DNA of 38,924 nt from Candidatus Gastranaerophilales bacterium. Its GTDB lineage: Bacteria > Cyanobacteriota > Vampirovibrionia > Gastranaerophilales > Gastranaerophilaceae. The DNA lies in assembly GCA_944322705.1 (NCBI GenBank), contig CALUPR010000004.1, positions 1 to 38,924 of the forward strand. Reading direction: 5' to 3'. The notes below the pieces were generated by a model, which was not told where the DNA came from, did not search any database, and was given only the letters and a program-made list of their open reading frames with translations. The translations under genes were made by a program, and so were the position numbers. Below, in pieces: positions 1 through 18,362 of the stretch (within the stretch, counting starts at the first letter, position 1; each line of letters begins with the position of its first letter).

Positions 1-34
1 GGGGGGCAATTGTCAGCTTCTTAATTCTTTCCAT
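1..34 (-). CDS. 5' end of a prepilin-like gene, cut by the window start
   Basis: Reading leftward from an ATG at 34-32, the first codons give MERIKKLTIAP and then run into a G tract (C on the coding strand) at 1-6, where the window ends. The 5' UTR and first codons nearly match those of the complete prepilin-like gene at 4702-5688, including the AGGAG ribosome site, so this is very likely another member of that family. The body of the protein is not in the window, so the identity is inferred from the matching start module only. The true length of the G tract cannot be seen. Confidence 0.55.
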   Translation of the reverse strand, partial: MERIKKLTIAP

Positions 35-3771: not shown

Positions 3772-4719
3772 ATGAATAAAATAAAAAATGTTTTAATATG
3801 CGGGATTGGGGCAATAGGCAGCATATATGCCGATAAAATTCAAAGATATGACGGCAGTTCTTTAAGAATACTTATTGATAAAACAAGATTGCAAAGATAT
3901 ATTGACAATCCAACTGTTTTTAACGGCAGAGAGTTAAAATTTAATTATGTTTTGCCTGATGAGAAAAATTTTAAAGCTGATTTAATTATAATCGCGACAA
4001 AATTTGACGGGTTAAAAGAGGCAATAAATAATATTGAAAATTTTATAAAAGATGACACGATTATTCTGTCGCTTTTAAACGGAGTGACAAGTGAATGGAT
4101 GATTGCTGAAAAGTACGGAAGAGAAAAAGTGCTTTATTCTTATTTTATCGGTCACAGTGCAGTAAGAGAAGGCAGATCAATTATACATGATGATGTAAAT
4201 ACAATTGTTTACGGTTCAGAAAATGCAGCTGATTTTAAAAATGTTGAACGTGTAAGGGAATATTTTGAAAGAGCTGGAATTAACTATTCAATTCCCGAAG
4301 ACATTATTCATTCTTTGTGGTTGAAATTCATGTTGAATGTTTCAGCCAATCAGACAACCGCAATTTTAGGGTTAACATTCGGCGAACTTCTGGAAAATCC
4401 TAAAGCAATGCAATTTGTCAGAAATATTTTAAAAGAGGTTGTGCAAATTGCAAAAGCTGAAGGTGTAAAAAATACAGATGTAATGATAGATGAAACTGTT
4501 GCAAACCTGAATAAAATGTGTCCTGAAGGTAAAACCTCAATGCTTCAGGATGTTGAAGCCGGCAGAAAAACAGAAGTTGATATGTTTGCAGGTACAGTGA
4601 TAGAGCTCGGGCTGAAACACGGTATTAATACCCCTTATAATAAAGTATTAAAAGAGCTTATTGATATAATTTATGAAAAGGGTCAGATAGAAAATTCCAA
4701 ATTACTTGTAACATTCTAA
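3772..4719 (+). CDS. Ketopantoate reductase family protein (PanE/ApbA-like)
   Basis: Probably an NADPH-dependent 2-dehydropantoate 2-reductase, acting in pantothenate and coenzyme A synthesis. The 315-residue protein starts with a Rossmann motif (CGIGAIGS, residues 10-17). It has the family's central and C-terminal features: NGVTSEW near 104-110, a K-F-x-x-N-V-S segment, and the helical domain with MLQDVEAGRKTEVD (about residues 262-275). The catalytic Lys-Asn-Ser-Glu pattern appears present. No other pantothenate gene is in the window, so a related reductase of different specificity is possible. Its last 18 bases overlap the convergent prepilin-like gene. Confidence 0.87.
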   Translation: MNKIKNVLICGIGAIGSIYADKIQRYDGSSLRILIDKTRLQRYIDNPTVFNGRELKFNYVLPDEKNFKADLIIIATKFDGLKEAINNIENFIKDDTIILSLLNGVTSEWMIAEKYGREKVLYSYFIGHSAVREGRSIIHDDVNTIVYGSENAADFKNVERVREYFERAGINYSIPEDIIHSLWLKFMLNVSANQTTAILGLTFGELLENPKAMQFVRNILKEVVQIAKAEGVKNTDVMIDETVANLNKMCPEGKTSMLQDVEAGRKTEVDMFAGTVIELGLKHGINTPYNKVLKELIDIIYEKGQIENSKLLVTF

Positions 4720-5688
4720 CAGCATTTTTTTTGATGTTTTGCCGCCTTTTTCTATCGTATTTCGTCCGCAACCAATATTCGGGTCAACTTTCAGATTATT
4801 CCCGTCTGATGAGCTTATGCCAAATTGGAATAAATCATAACCCCATTTATTTGGACCTTTTTTACCGTTAATATCAATGGCAAATAACGGATAACTGCCT
4901 TTTAAACACCACATTAGAGTTGTTCCGTCGGCTAACACCCAGGCAAGATTGGAATCCAATCCTGAACTTGTCGCAAAACATTGGCATCCATTGGAGGCAT
5001 TCGCAATTTCATCATCTGTTGCATCAGGATTTTTATCTATATATATTTCCTCAGCACTTTTATACTGAGGGACACAGCCACCTGAAATTGCATTTCCGTT
5101 GCATTCTTTCACAACAGAAAGAATCTTTTTCAGCTCGTCTTTTACCATTCTGCATGTTCTGTCACCCTGACCTGTAGATCCTGTGTAATTAGGGTAATAA
5201 CACTCAGGAGTGTAGCCCAAATTGTTTTCTAAAGTCTTATATGCATTTTGAATAGTGTTATAGCTTTTTAAGAATTGTTTTTGAAGTACTTTTTCCTGAT
5301 AGTTTGCTACAATTGATGGAATCGTCAAAGCAGCAACAACACCGATGATGCCAAGGGTGATTAAGACCTCAGCAAGAGTGAATGCAGCTCGACGGGTATT
5401 GTTGGAATGGGCTACGTGCGTAGCACCCTCAGCCAAGGTAAATGCTGCTTTGTGTTTTAGTGAAGAGTGAAGAGTGAAGGGTGAAGCGAGTTTTTTTACT
5501 TCCCTCCCTCGGGGGAGGGATTGAGGGAGAGGGTTATTAGCCATGAGATGCACAAGTTCAGGATGACGTCGTAATTTGTCAGACAGAACTACGTGCGTAG
5601 CACGCTTGTAATAACAATTTTTCAAATGTGACGTGTCAAGCGGCACGCTTGGGGGGGGGGCAATTGTCAGCTTCTTATCTCTTTCCAT
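4702..5688 (-). CDS. Prepilin-like protein with a 102-residue repeat-derived leader, frame open through a C10 tract
   Basis: The 328-residue product carries a type IV pilin-like N-terminal helix (FTLAEVLITLGIIGVVAALT from residue 103) and a C-terminal DINGKKGPN motif shared with the gene at 17500. Such proteins are cleaved by prepilin peptidase and built into pili or secretion pseudopili. The leader is unusually long. It contains a run of ten C at 5651-5660 (coding strand), two copies of an ATHV-coding palindrome, a heptamer repeat and an earlier truncated copy of AAFTLAE (residues 81-87). C9 or C11 would bring stops soon after the tract, so this copy reads as ON. The start at 5688 is chosen for its AGGAG site and its match with the copy at 34. 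Confidence 0.85.
   Translation of the reverse strand: MERDKKLTIAPPPSVPLDTSHLKNCYYKRATHVVLSDKLRRHPELVHLMANNPLPQSLPRGREVKKLASPFTLHSSLKHKAAFTLAEGATHVAHSNNTRRAAFTLAEVLITLGIIGVVAALTIPSIVANYQEKVLQKQFLKSYNTIQNAYKTLENNLGYTPECYYPNYTGSTGQGDRTCRMVKDELKKILSVVKECNGNAISGGCVPQYKSAEEIYIDKNPDATDDEIANASNGCQCFATSSGLDSNLAWVLADGTTLMWCLKGSYPLFAIDINGKKGPNKWGYDLFQFGISSSDGNNLKVDPNIGCGRNTIEKGGKTSKKMLLECYK
5411..5424. repeat. GCTAC/GTAGC palindrome in coding DNA, copy 1
   Basis: GCTACGTGCGTAGC. The 15 bases at 5412-5426 recur exactly at 5589-5603, and a variant lies at 17628-17641. All copies are read in the same frame, giving AT(H/Q)V. Confidence 0.7.
5459..5486. repeat. Four tandem heptamers in coding DNA
   Basis: Three exact copies of AGTGAAG and one GGTGAAG in a row. 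A gain or loss of one unit would shift the frame of the prepilin-like gene, as 7 is not a multiple of 3. Confidence 0.75.
5501..5520. repeat. CCCTCC/GGAGGG hairpin in coding DNA
   Basis: TCCCTCC at 5501-5507 pairs with GGAGGGA at 5514-5520. It resembles the CCCTCTC...GAGAGGG hairpins at 15915-15937 and 17608-17627. Confidence 0.55.
5545..5570. repeat. Degenerate copy of the 21-nt palindromic repeat inside coding DNA
   Basis: GAGATGCACAAGTTCAGGAT (5545-5564) followed by GAC follows the intergenic copy at 186-211 with part of the left arm missing. On the coding strand it gives RRHPELVHL within the prepilin leader. Confidence 0.55.
5589..5603. repeat. GCTAC/GTAGC palindrome in coding DNA, copy 2
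   Basis: Exact 15-base repeat of 5412-5426, in the leader of the prepilin-like gene and in the same reading frame. Confidence 0.7.
5651..5660 (-). repeat. Homopolymer tract of ten C (coding strand), open frame
   Basis: Ten G on the plus strand, codons 10-13 of the prepilin-like gene. The frame is open at length 10. Lengths 9 and 11 both run into stops within about a dozen codons. A candidate slipped-strand switch. Confidence 0.85.
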
Positions 5689-5753
5689 AATAAAAACTCC
5701 TCTTAATTTCCTTTGATACATTTATTATTTACGATTTTTTTATGATTTGTCAA
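5689..5753 (-). promoter_or_regulatory. Promoter and ribosome site of the prepilin-like gene
   Basis: TTGACA at 5753-5748 directly follows the stop codon of the upstream small gene. A TAAATA box follows after 16 bases. An AGGAG site lies about 8 bases before the ATG at 5688. The module duplicates 35-100. Confidence 0.6.
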
Positions 5754-11106: not shown

Positions 11107-11859
11107 ATGAAAGAACAATATTACATATTAATTTTTTTAATAATAGCTGTTAGTTTTTTATGCGGATATTTTTGTATAAAACCTCATCTTAAAAGTTCTT
11201 CTAAAGCTCAAAAAATTGTGGATAATGAATTTGACAGCAGCTTAAATTATATATCAGATTACAGCGTCGGGGGGGGGGCAGCTGATAGCGAATTAAAGAT
11301 TTTGGTAATCGGCAATTCTATTTCAAGCGGTGTTATTGTTGATAATATAAAAGATGATTATGTAAATGTTCTAATACGTAAAATATCAAAAAAACTGAAT
11401 AATCGTTTAGTAACTGCTAAAGTTTATAATCTTGCTAATTTTGAAAGACATTATAAAAATTATGATTATGATGTGTTACGCCCGTTAAAAGAGTATAACC
11501 CGAGTATAATTATATTTCAGCTGGGTGAAAATTATAAGAGTGATGATGATGCTCTTTATCTTGAACGTTTTATTAGACTGGTTAATTATTTTGACGGTGC
11601 GGATTTAAAAATTGTAACATCGCCTTATTGGGGGAAAACTAACAAAAATAAATTGAATGAAAATGCAGCTCTTGCGACAAATTCTTTTTATGTAGATATT
11701 TCAAACTTATTTATGTATGATAAAAAAACAAGAGCAGATTATAACAAAAAATTTGAAAATGAAGCTCTGGGAATGCACCCTGGTGAGTATGGAATGCAAA
11801 GAATTGCAGAAGAAATCTTTATACTGATAAATGCGTGTATACATAAAAACATTATTTAG
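11107..11859 (+). CDS. Membrane-anchored SGNH/GDSL-type hydrolase-like protein with a G10 tract
   Basis: A 250-residue protein with an N-terminal membrane anchor (about 6-25). A domain follows with SGNH-type blocks: VIGNSIS near 92-98, QLGEN near 138-142, and MHPGEYGMQRIAE near 221-233. These correspond to the catalytic Ser, the oxyanion Gly/Asn and the catalytic His. Family members are esterases or carbohydrate O-deacetylases; the substrate is unknown. Between anchor and domain a run of ten G (11269-11278) encodes GGG and keeps the frame open. Nine or eleven G would give a stop within a few codons. TATACT ends seven bases before the ATG. Confidence 0.7.
   Translation: MKEQYYILIFLIIAVSFLCGYFCIKPHLKSSSKAQKIVDNEFDSSLNYISDYSVGGGAADSELKILVIGNSISSGVIVDNIKDDYVNVLIRKISKKLNNRLVTAKVYNLANFERHYKNYDYDVLRPLKEYNPSIIIFQLGENYKSDDDALYLERFIRLVNYFDGADLKIVTSPYWGKTNKNKLNENAALATNSFYVDISNLFMYDKKTRADYNKKFENEALGMHPGEYGMQRIAEEIFILINACIHKNII
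11269..11278 (+). repeat. Homopolymer tract of ten G, open frame
   Basis: Lies in codons 55-58 of the SGNH-like gene. G9 and G11 both lead to stops shortly after. It has the same length as the tracts at 5651 and 17530. Confidence 0.85.
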
Positions 11860-17439: not shown

Positions 17440-17468
17440 TTGCTATTTTTTTCATTAACTGTTATAAT
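17440..17468 (+). promoter_or_regulatory. Promoter of the out-of-frame prepilin-like gene
   Basis: TTGCTA at 17440-17445, 17 bases, TATAAT at 17463-17468. A leader of about 25 bases follows, with GAGAGGA before the ATG at 17500. The start signals of this gene are thus intact. Confidence 0.65.
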
Positions 17469-17499
17469 AAACATGTTGCAGTAAAGAGAGGATCTATTA

Positions 17500-18362
17500 A
17501 TGGAAAGGATTATTAATAAATTTGAATTCGGGGGGGGGGCACTGTAAGCTCCGCCGGAAGCAAAGATGCCAAGAGGCAAAGAAGCGAAGCTAGTATCGTA
17601 AAAATTTCCCCTCTCTCGGGAGAGGGGGCTACGCAAGTAGCCCTGCCGTACAAGCAACGTAGATTTGCGTTTACCTTGGCTGAGGTTCTGATCACTCTCG
17701 GCATAATCGGTGTTGTAGCCGCAATAATTATTCCCTCTATTATTCAAAGTTATGACAAATCGCAAACTATTACAAAATTAAAAAAAGCATATTCTGTTTT
17801 AGGGCAAGTGGTGACAAAGTCTTTTGCTGACAATGGACCTGTTAATTTTGTTGCAGGGGAAACAGTAAATGGAGCAGATGTTGAACAATTTTTTCAAACT
17901 TACTGGCTTCCTTATTTTAATGGTGCAGTTGTATCTCAAGACAGAATTTATCCGTATGGGAATGTAACGCCGTATAAATATGTTGATAATTCTGTTGTTT
18001 CTACAGGAGTTTATACAAGTTTTGGTGAGGGACGCGTATATTTAACAACCCCTGACGGAATAAGTTACCTTATAATTTTTATAGATTGGAAAGATGTAAC
18101 TGATGAAAATGGAAACACTACTTCAATACTCACATACAATTCAATGCAAAAAGTATATGTTGATATAAATGGAACTAAAAGACCTAACAGATTAGGGAAA
18201 GATGTATTTATATTTTTAATAGATTTTAACAGCAATGTAGTTCGCTCATGGAGTTATGATAGTCTTGCTTTTGCCGAAAACAATTGTAAAACAAAAGGAG
18301 AAAGCTGCTCAACTAAGATAATTACAGACGGTTGGCAGATTAAATATGATTACCCTTGGTAG
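17500..18362 (+). CDS. Prepilin-like gene, out of frame at a G10 tract (phase OFF)
   Basis: The ATG at 17500 reads MERIINKFEFGGGAL and stops at 17545-17547. The prepilin domain (FAFTLAEVLITLGIIGVVAA and a C-terminal DINGTKRPN motif) lies in a different frame that has no stop from the G tract to 18362. One added G (or two removed) would join them into a 287-residue protein with a 57-residue leader. The leader would contain the ATQV-coding palindrome also found in the 4702-5688 gene. Promoter and ribosome site are intact. It could be a phase-variable pseudopilin in the OFF state, a decayed gene, or a homopolymer sequencing error. A shorter product from the TTG at 17676 would lack a leader. Confidence 0.75.
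17530..17539 (+). repeat. Homopolymer tract of ten G, frame closed
   Basis: It lies 30 bases after the ATG. G10 leads to a stop at 17545, G9 to a later stop, and G11 opens the full prepilin frame. Confidence 0.85.
17608..17641. repeat. Two adjacent palindromes in the prepilin leader
   Basis: CCCCTCTC/GAGAGGGG at 17608-17627 is followed directly by GCTAC GCAA GTAGC at 17628-17641. Both belong to families seen in the leader of the gene at 5688; the first is also intergenic at 15915. Confidence 0.6.

Follow-up and report, generated by a model that had tools for sequence, protein, structure and literature searches.

Putative slipped-strand switching of a family of type IV prepilin-like genes in Gastranaerophilales

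In Neisseria, the pilin varies by gene conversion, the donors being silent pilS copies that lack a promoter and a start. Among systems of repeat-tract switching, 29 poly-G/C contingency loci are known from Campylobacter jejuni NCTC11168 (PMC4965091), and 115 candidate phase-variable genes from Neisseria meningitidis (PMC5084427). A search of the literature on Gastranaerophilales, Melainabacteria or Vampirovibrionia in connection with phase variation, homopolymers or pili found nothing on such a system.

Here we analysed a window of 38,924 nt (the whole stretch of DNA under study), which is contig 4 of a Candidatus Gastranaerophilales MAG of 1.58 Mb in 123 contigs. A first-pass annotation of the window took in a single G-tract gene; the genome holds about 31 such genes, together with an OFF default, a conserved nearby stop and a junction at the tract. 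This set resembles the C. jejuni loci in its AT-rich genome, in G/C runs that lie mostly in reading frames, in one-base OFF/ON changes, in the large number of loci and in the involvement of surface structures. However, whereas the C. jejuni loci comprise many kinds of genes, those of Gastranaerophilales belong to one protein family, with a fixed place for the tract after the start, an OFF default with its conserved stop, and a shared flank element. N. meningitidis likewise has many slipped-strand loci, its strong candidates being most often G/C runs, but these are of diverse functions and repeat types. With Neisseria pilE/pilS the set shares a pilin repertoire and recombination among copies, yet it does not fit a scheme in which donors lack promoter and start, since the OFF tract copies have a Shine-Dalgarno (SD) sequence and an ATG. 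Our results suggest a phase-variation system of a known kind that is new in its lineage, scale and design, and apparently undescribed.

A prepilin-like gene with a G10 tract

The gene starts at an ATG (17500-17502, forward strand) preceded by a Shine-Dalgarno-like AGAGGA (17487-17492), and 30 nt separate the ATG from the beginning of a run of exactly ten G (17530-17539), beyond which an in-frame TAA (17545-17547) ends translation, all as the first-pass annotation had described. It had also called the promoter intact; a near-consensus, TG-extended sigma-70-like site (TTGCTA-17 nt-TATAAT, 17440-17468, forward strand) is indeed present by consensus scan, but similar sites occur at chance rate and on its own it says little. 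From the tract to a TAG at 18360-18362 the prepilin frame has no interruption, and it reaches the ATG only if the tract has 11 bases. Translation from the ATG gives 287 residues with eleven Gs, 15 with ten and 30 with nine, bearing out the claim that one extra G would join start and domain, and a change of one unit toggles between full-length and truncated products (287 and 15 aa), as is expected of an SSR locus.

The start module (17500-17529; the ATG and MERIINKFEF) is 89% identical over 45 nt to that of an OFF gene on another contig (C32:141), whose downstream part is different. To the right of the tract lie a conserved flank, CACTGTAAGCTCC (17540-17552), which includes the OFF-frame stop, and a leader in the prepilin frame (17538-17669) with a palindromic repeat at 17608-17627. 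No ATG, GTG or TTG was found in this frame between the tract and FTLAEVLIT, so that no substitute start would preserve the cleavage site. The 287-residue product contains FTLAEVLITLGIIGVVAA, directly preceded by RRFA in the prepilin N-terminal motif (PF07963; 17658-17729), and the predicted mature pilin-like protein with its stop codon occupies 17670-18362. Pfam N_methyl matches above its cut-off, NCBIfam prepilin models match too, and the protein has the cleavage/methylation motif, E5 and hydrophobic helix by which a type IV prepilin is recognized. Two platform genes of T2SSF type and a gene for a prepilin peptidase (Peptidase_A24) are also present in the genome, completing the likeness to type IV prepilins and pseudopilins (ComG/GspG-like). 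Unlike these, the protein has a C-terminal domain to which no described family could be assigned, and leaders in the set extend 1-174 residues past the tract. Structure prediction gave a helix at residues 3-55 followed by strands (mean pLDDT 44, 4 sequences only). The closest orthologue reaches 45% at best, with none close, and a contig search gave one relative only, at 31%. The neighbours are housekeeping genes, RadA upstream and GAPDH downstream.

We consider it likely that this locus is one of a genome-wide set of slipped-strand phase-variable type IV prepilin-like genes. The first-pass view of an OFF-state contingency locus is thus the best-supported reading, although reversible switching within a clone, or among reads, has not been shown.

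Tract genes in the window, the genome and the family

G/C runs in the window have lengths of 1-6 and then, with none between, three of 10, where a first-order expectation is 0.002 runs of at least ten per window. One of the other two is a C10 tract (5651-5660 of the forward strand) in another prepilin gene of this family (4702-5688, reverse strand), which is now in frame (ON). A third tract prepilin gene is represented by its start only (1-34, reverse strand), as the contig end falls inside its tract; positions 1-86 are 94% identical to 5655-5740. The last G10 (11269-11278, forward strand) lies inside a different gene (11107-11859) about 54 codons past the start, and is in frame now; a length of 9 or 11 would cut the product to about 60 aa. 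Its motifs GNSIS and HPGEYG make it SGNH-hydrolase-like only by eye, and a Pfam search gave no match. Elsewhere in the genome, a C10 on the sense strand is in frame in a glycosyltransferase-like gene (L024, G000:C43), and L014 (G000:C18) holds an open frame of 306 aa whose kind is unknown, with G10/G9 tracts across these two loci. A few non-pilin tract genes thus exist.

Genome-wide, about 34 G/C runs of at least ten were counted, against 0.09 expected (G9 scan; first-order expectation), which agrees with the tract length far in excess of chance, within or ahead of a reading frame, that is expected of an SSR locus. About 31 of the runs sit 25-69 nt past the ATG, supported by an SD, of a prepilin-like gene; of these genes 6 are in frame (ON) and 17 one base short (OFF), while 8 are interrupted close to the tract by the end of a contig. 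N_methyl has 39 matches in the genome, and those genes that have no tract mostly carry short ordinary leaders such as MKNNKKAFTLAEVL. Because repeated tract flanks break the assembly, the tract gene count is a minimum. Contigs with an end in a tract, or no more than about 100 nt from one, are C4 (at position 1), C6, C45, C46, C66, C80, C91, C104 and C119.

Two C10 genes, L010 (G000:C5:31999) and L003 (window 5651-5660), are in frame through a base change or 2-nt difference adjoining the tract relative to their paralogues in the OFF state, as though fixed closer to ON. At window positions 5323-5650 and in the leaders of other tract loci, degenerate copies of the prepilin motif (AFTLAEGATHVALSDNQRRYAFTLAEVLIT) occur along with REP-like palindromes (CTACGTGCGTAGC, CTCTCGGGAGAG), as if the leaders had been assembled from genomic repeats inserted without loss of frame.

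Of 58 genomes in this family, 44 have an SD-ATG-G9 layout, at up to about 150 raw matches in a single genome, but only 5 of 39 genomes outside it do, at one or two matches each and near the reversed-pattern control; the C9 form is similarly distributed. Raw match counts are inflated by long runs, and true gene numbers are lower; one genome (G026), sampled only in part, has at least 44 distinct tract genes. A loss of mismatch repair was ruled out as the cause of slippage, MutS_I being found in 91 of 97 genomes. In three genomes (G041, L264-L268; G045, L280-L282; G047, L270-L272) a tract follows a conserved start, its frame not being clearly joined to the downstream prepilin; this may be another arrangement, and the genus counts below leave out the genera concerned, in which the link between tract and prepilin frame is unclear.

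Tract length, reading frame and the OFF state

Among 161 pooled distinct genes of the genus, tracts of 9, 10, 11 and 12 bases occur in 12, 132, 16 and 1 genes. Only 19 of the 161 (12%) are in frame, against one third for random states (p 5e-10, which is overstated, as paralogues are not independent). The other 88% are out of frame, 131 of these 142 OFF genes being one base short and 11 one base long. For 145 genes the ON length is 11 (or 8), and lengths 9, 10 and 11 are represented by 7, 126 and 12 of them; for 15 genes it is 10 (or 13), with lengths 9, 10, 11 and 12 in 4, 6, 4 and 1; a single gene would be ON at 9 or 12. Length is thus centred on 10 in every frame, and the surrounding sequence makes 10 the OFF and 11 the ON length, the latter in 90% of genes, while 10 is the commonest length. 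The distance from ATG to tract falls in all three phases, and the arrangement therefore does not go back to one inherited frame. In 79 of 85 G-type genes of length 10, an OFF-frame stop lies 4-11 nt past the tract, with a spacing that tracks the phase, and the median distance to a stop in the neighbouring frame is three times longer. Given this conserved nearby stop and a length centred on 10, OFF is a maintained state, the built-in default.

An ON fraction so far below one third, with the OFF genes overwhelmingly one short, needs an added selection argument beyond the naive contingency model. In C. jejuni, G-tracts show an insertion bias at G8-9 and a deletion bias at G10-11 (PMC4085013). By analogy, it is plausible, though an inference, that tracts rest near 10 through gain at G8-9 and loss from G10-11, in which case a gene with an ON length of 11 would be mostly OFF, with a quickly reverting ON minority.

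Length also differs between closely related copies. Near-identical paralogues in genome G040 have G12 (L195, ON) and G13 (L212, OFF), with tract lengths of 9-13 in that genome; in G035 they have G9 (L277, OFF) and G10 (L278, ON), and further copies have G11, such that the same start is found at 9, 10 and 11; copies in G034 have G10 and G11. The direction of the OFF shift is unlike between genera, the others being mostly one base too long or mixed, and G035 and G040 show -1, 0 and +1. Among the paralogues and related species compared here, lengths thus differ, as they should at an SSR locus. As genes of the ON-at-11 class occur at 9, 10 and 11, and near-identical paralogues have unlike lengths, the sequences indicate that tract length varies at the DNA level.

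These observations bear on programmed slippage, the leading alternative account of why genes across the genus fall one base short, by which the tract would be fixed in DNA and RNA polymerase would add a base (or ribosomes shift by -1), giving a steady full-length fraction for each OFF gene. A shortfall of exactly one base in 131 of 142 OFF genes, in all three phases of the ATG-tract distance and with both G and C, is what it would produce, and a homopolymer with an unslipped-frame stop directly past it is a layout typical of recoding sites. However, programmed slippage supposes a fixed tract and a constant direction, whereas lengths of 9 and 11 occur within one ON class, length differs between paralogues, and other genera show no fixed direction. 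The element is also found in both orientations, the unslipped product is merely a peptide of 12-28 residues, and transcriptional slippage is reported to prefer A/T over G/C runs (PMC5084427). A first sample, with an artefact dropped, had an OFF ratio of 98:1 one base short, which spoke for programmed slippage; two apparent -1 genes (L007 and the second match of L155) were dropped as start-choice artefacts. The wider sample (131:11), with alleles of length 9 and 11, lowered the standing of this explanation, which we hold to be improbable though not excluded for single genes.

Flank modules and the remaining alternatives

To the right of the G run stands CANNTTTAAGCTCC or similar. Of 74 G-type genes, 61 have GCT[TC] no more than 26 nt away (12 expected), and 29 of 39 C-type genes have it when the opposite strand is read (4 expected). 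The flank element is thus inverted relative to the gene in C-type genes, and G and C runs have a common modal length of 10. Since the element can face either way with respect to transcription, it is unlikely to be conserved for an effect on RNA or protein, and this inference points to a DNA-level rather than an RNA-level feature, although common descent of the C-type copies weakens it. In the home genome, a left flank of about 27 bp (TGTGACGTGTCAAGCGGC..GCTTGC) is start-side coding sequence in some genes and lies on the leader side, on the opposite strand, in others.

Gene pairs with unrelated left and identical right flanks occur, as does the reverse, the switch point being the tract; the gene on C46 is 100% identical over 45 nt right of the tract to those on C66, C28 and C103, while the left flanks are unrelated. 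Two kinds of start, A (C4:17530, C32, C40) and B (C26, C46, C91, C92), are each found beside both kinds of right module, X (CACTGTAAGC) and Y (CACTCCTC). Such a four-gamete pattern cannot arise without recombination, or repeated origin, close to the tract. As read from these flanks, the tract is the junction at which start and leader modules have been reassorted. More speculatively, and as a minority view of our own, tract and flank motif would form a dedicated DNA element that a trans-acting factor recognises; this element would set the tract length (OFF at 10, ON at 11) and serve as the joint for exchange, in either orientation, of start and pilin modules, a combined frame switch and cassette-shuffling site in tens of pilin genes or more per genome.

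The same four combinations, and the identical right flanks beside unrelated left ones, would suit tract genes that are mainly a store of out-of-frame pilins, recombined into a few ON genes by crossover at the tract flanks. Yet each OFF copy still has an SD and an ATG of its own and needs a change of one base to be ON, and the reassortment may be ancient, which leaves such silent cassettes very unlikely as the main explanation.

All lengths are assembly consensus, without reads or isolates, homopolymers are error-prone, PCR slippage is able to distort tract lengths (PMC4965091), and a single added base restores the frame; the true tracts might then all be G11 and the genes simply ON. However, an OFF-frame stop kept 4-11 nt past the tract in all three phases would be pointless if 10 were an error, and 9, 10, 11, 12 and 13 are all called, on contigs of different assemblies. 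That relatives would all have G11, one of the outcomes the first-pass annotation named as refuting it, is contradicted by lengths of 9 to 14, and we give an artefact of assembly or sequencing hardly any credence. Least credible are pseudogenes with frozen tracts, for which the 88% out of frame would speak but not the full-length open frames, nor dN/dS between orthologues that are OFF in two species (0.08 for L159/L161, 0.14 for L153/L154, 0.22 for L094/L103), which also contradicts the other such outcome, a fixed G10 with decayed codons; on these three pairs, OFF genes remain under purifying selection.

For a set of slipped-strand phase-variable prepilin-like genes, we chart the following model. 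Each gene combines its own SD and ATG, a G/C homopolymer of about 10, a presumably cleavable leader and a pilin. Replication slippage would alter the tract by one base and switch the frame, its occurrence, rate and reversibility being inferred; at length 10 translation would end a few codons past the tract (OFF), and at 11 the full prepilin would be made (ON). Prepilin peptidase is then inferred to remove the leader, including the Gly or Pro residues encoded by the tract, such that the mature pilin would carry no trace of the switch. Given about 30 or more such genes in a genome, a cell would display a small and changing subset of pilins; their assembly into pili is likewise inferred, as is a purpose in adhesion or in evasion of phage or immunity.

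Common in the gut and almost uncultured, the Gastranaerophilales are relatives of cyanobacteria, and their own surface biology is little known. If the model is true, tens of switchable pilins per genome across the family would make this one of the larger single-family contingency systems, within-host surface diversity would be readable from metagenomes, and the family would offer a natural test bed for the evolution of OFF defaults at homopolymers.
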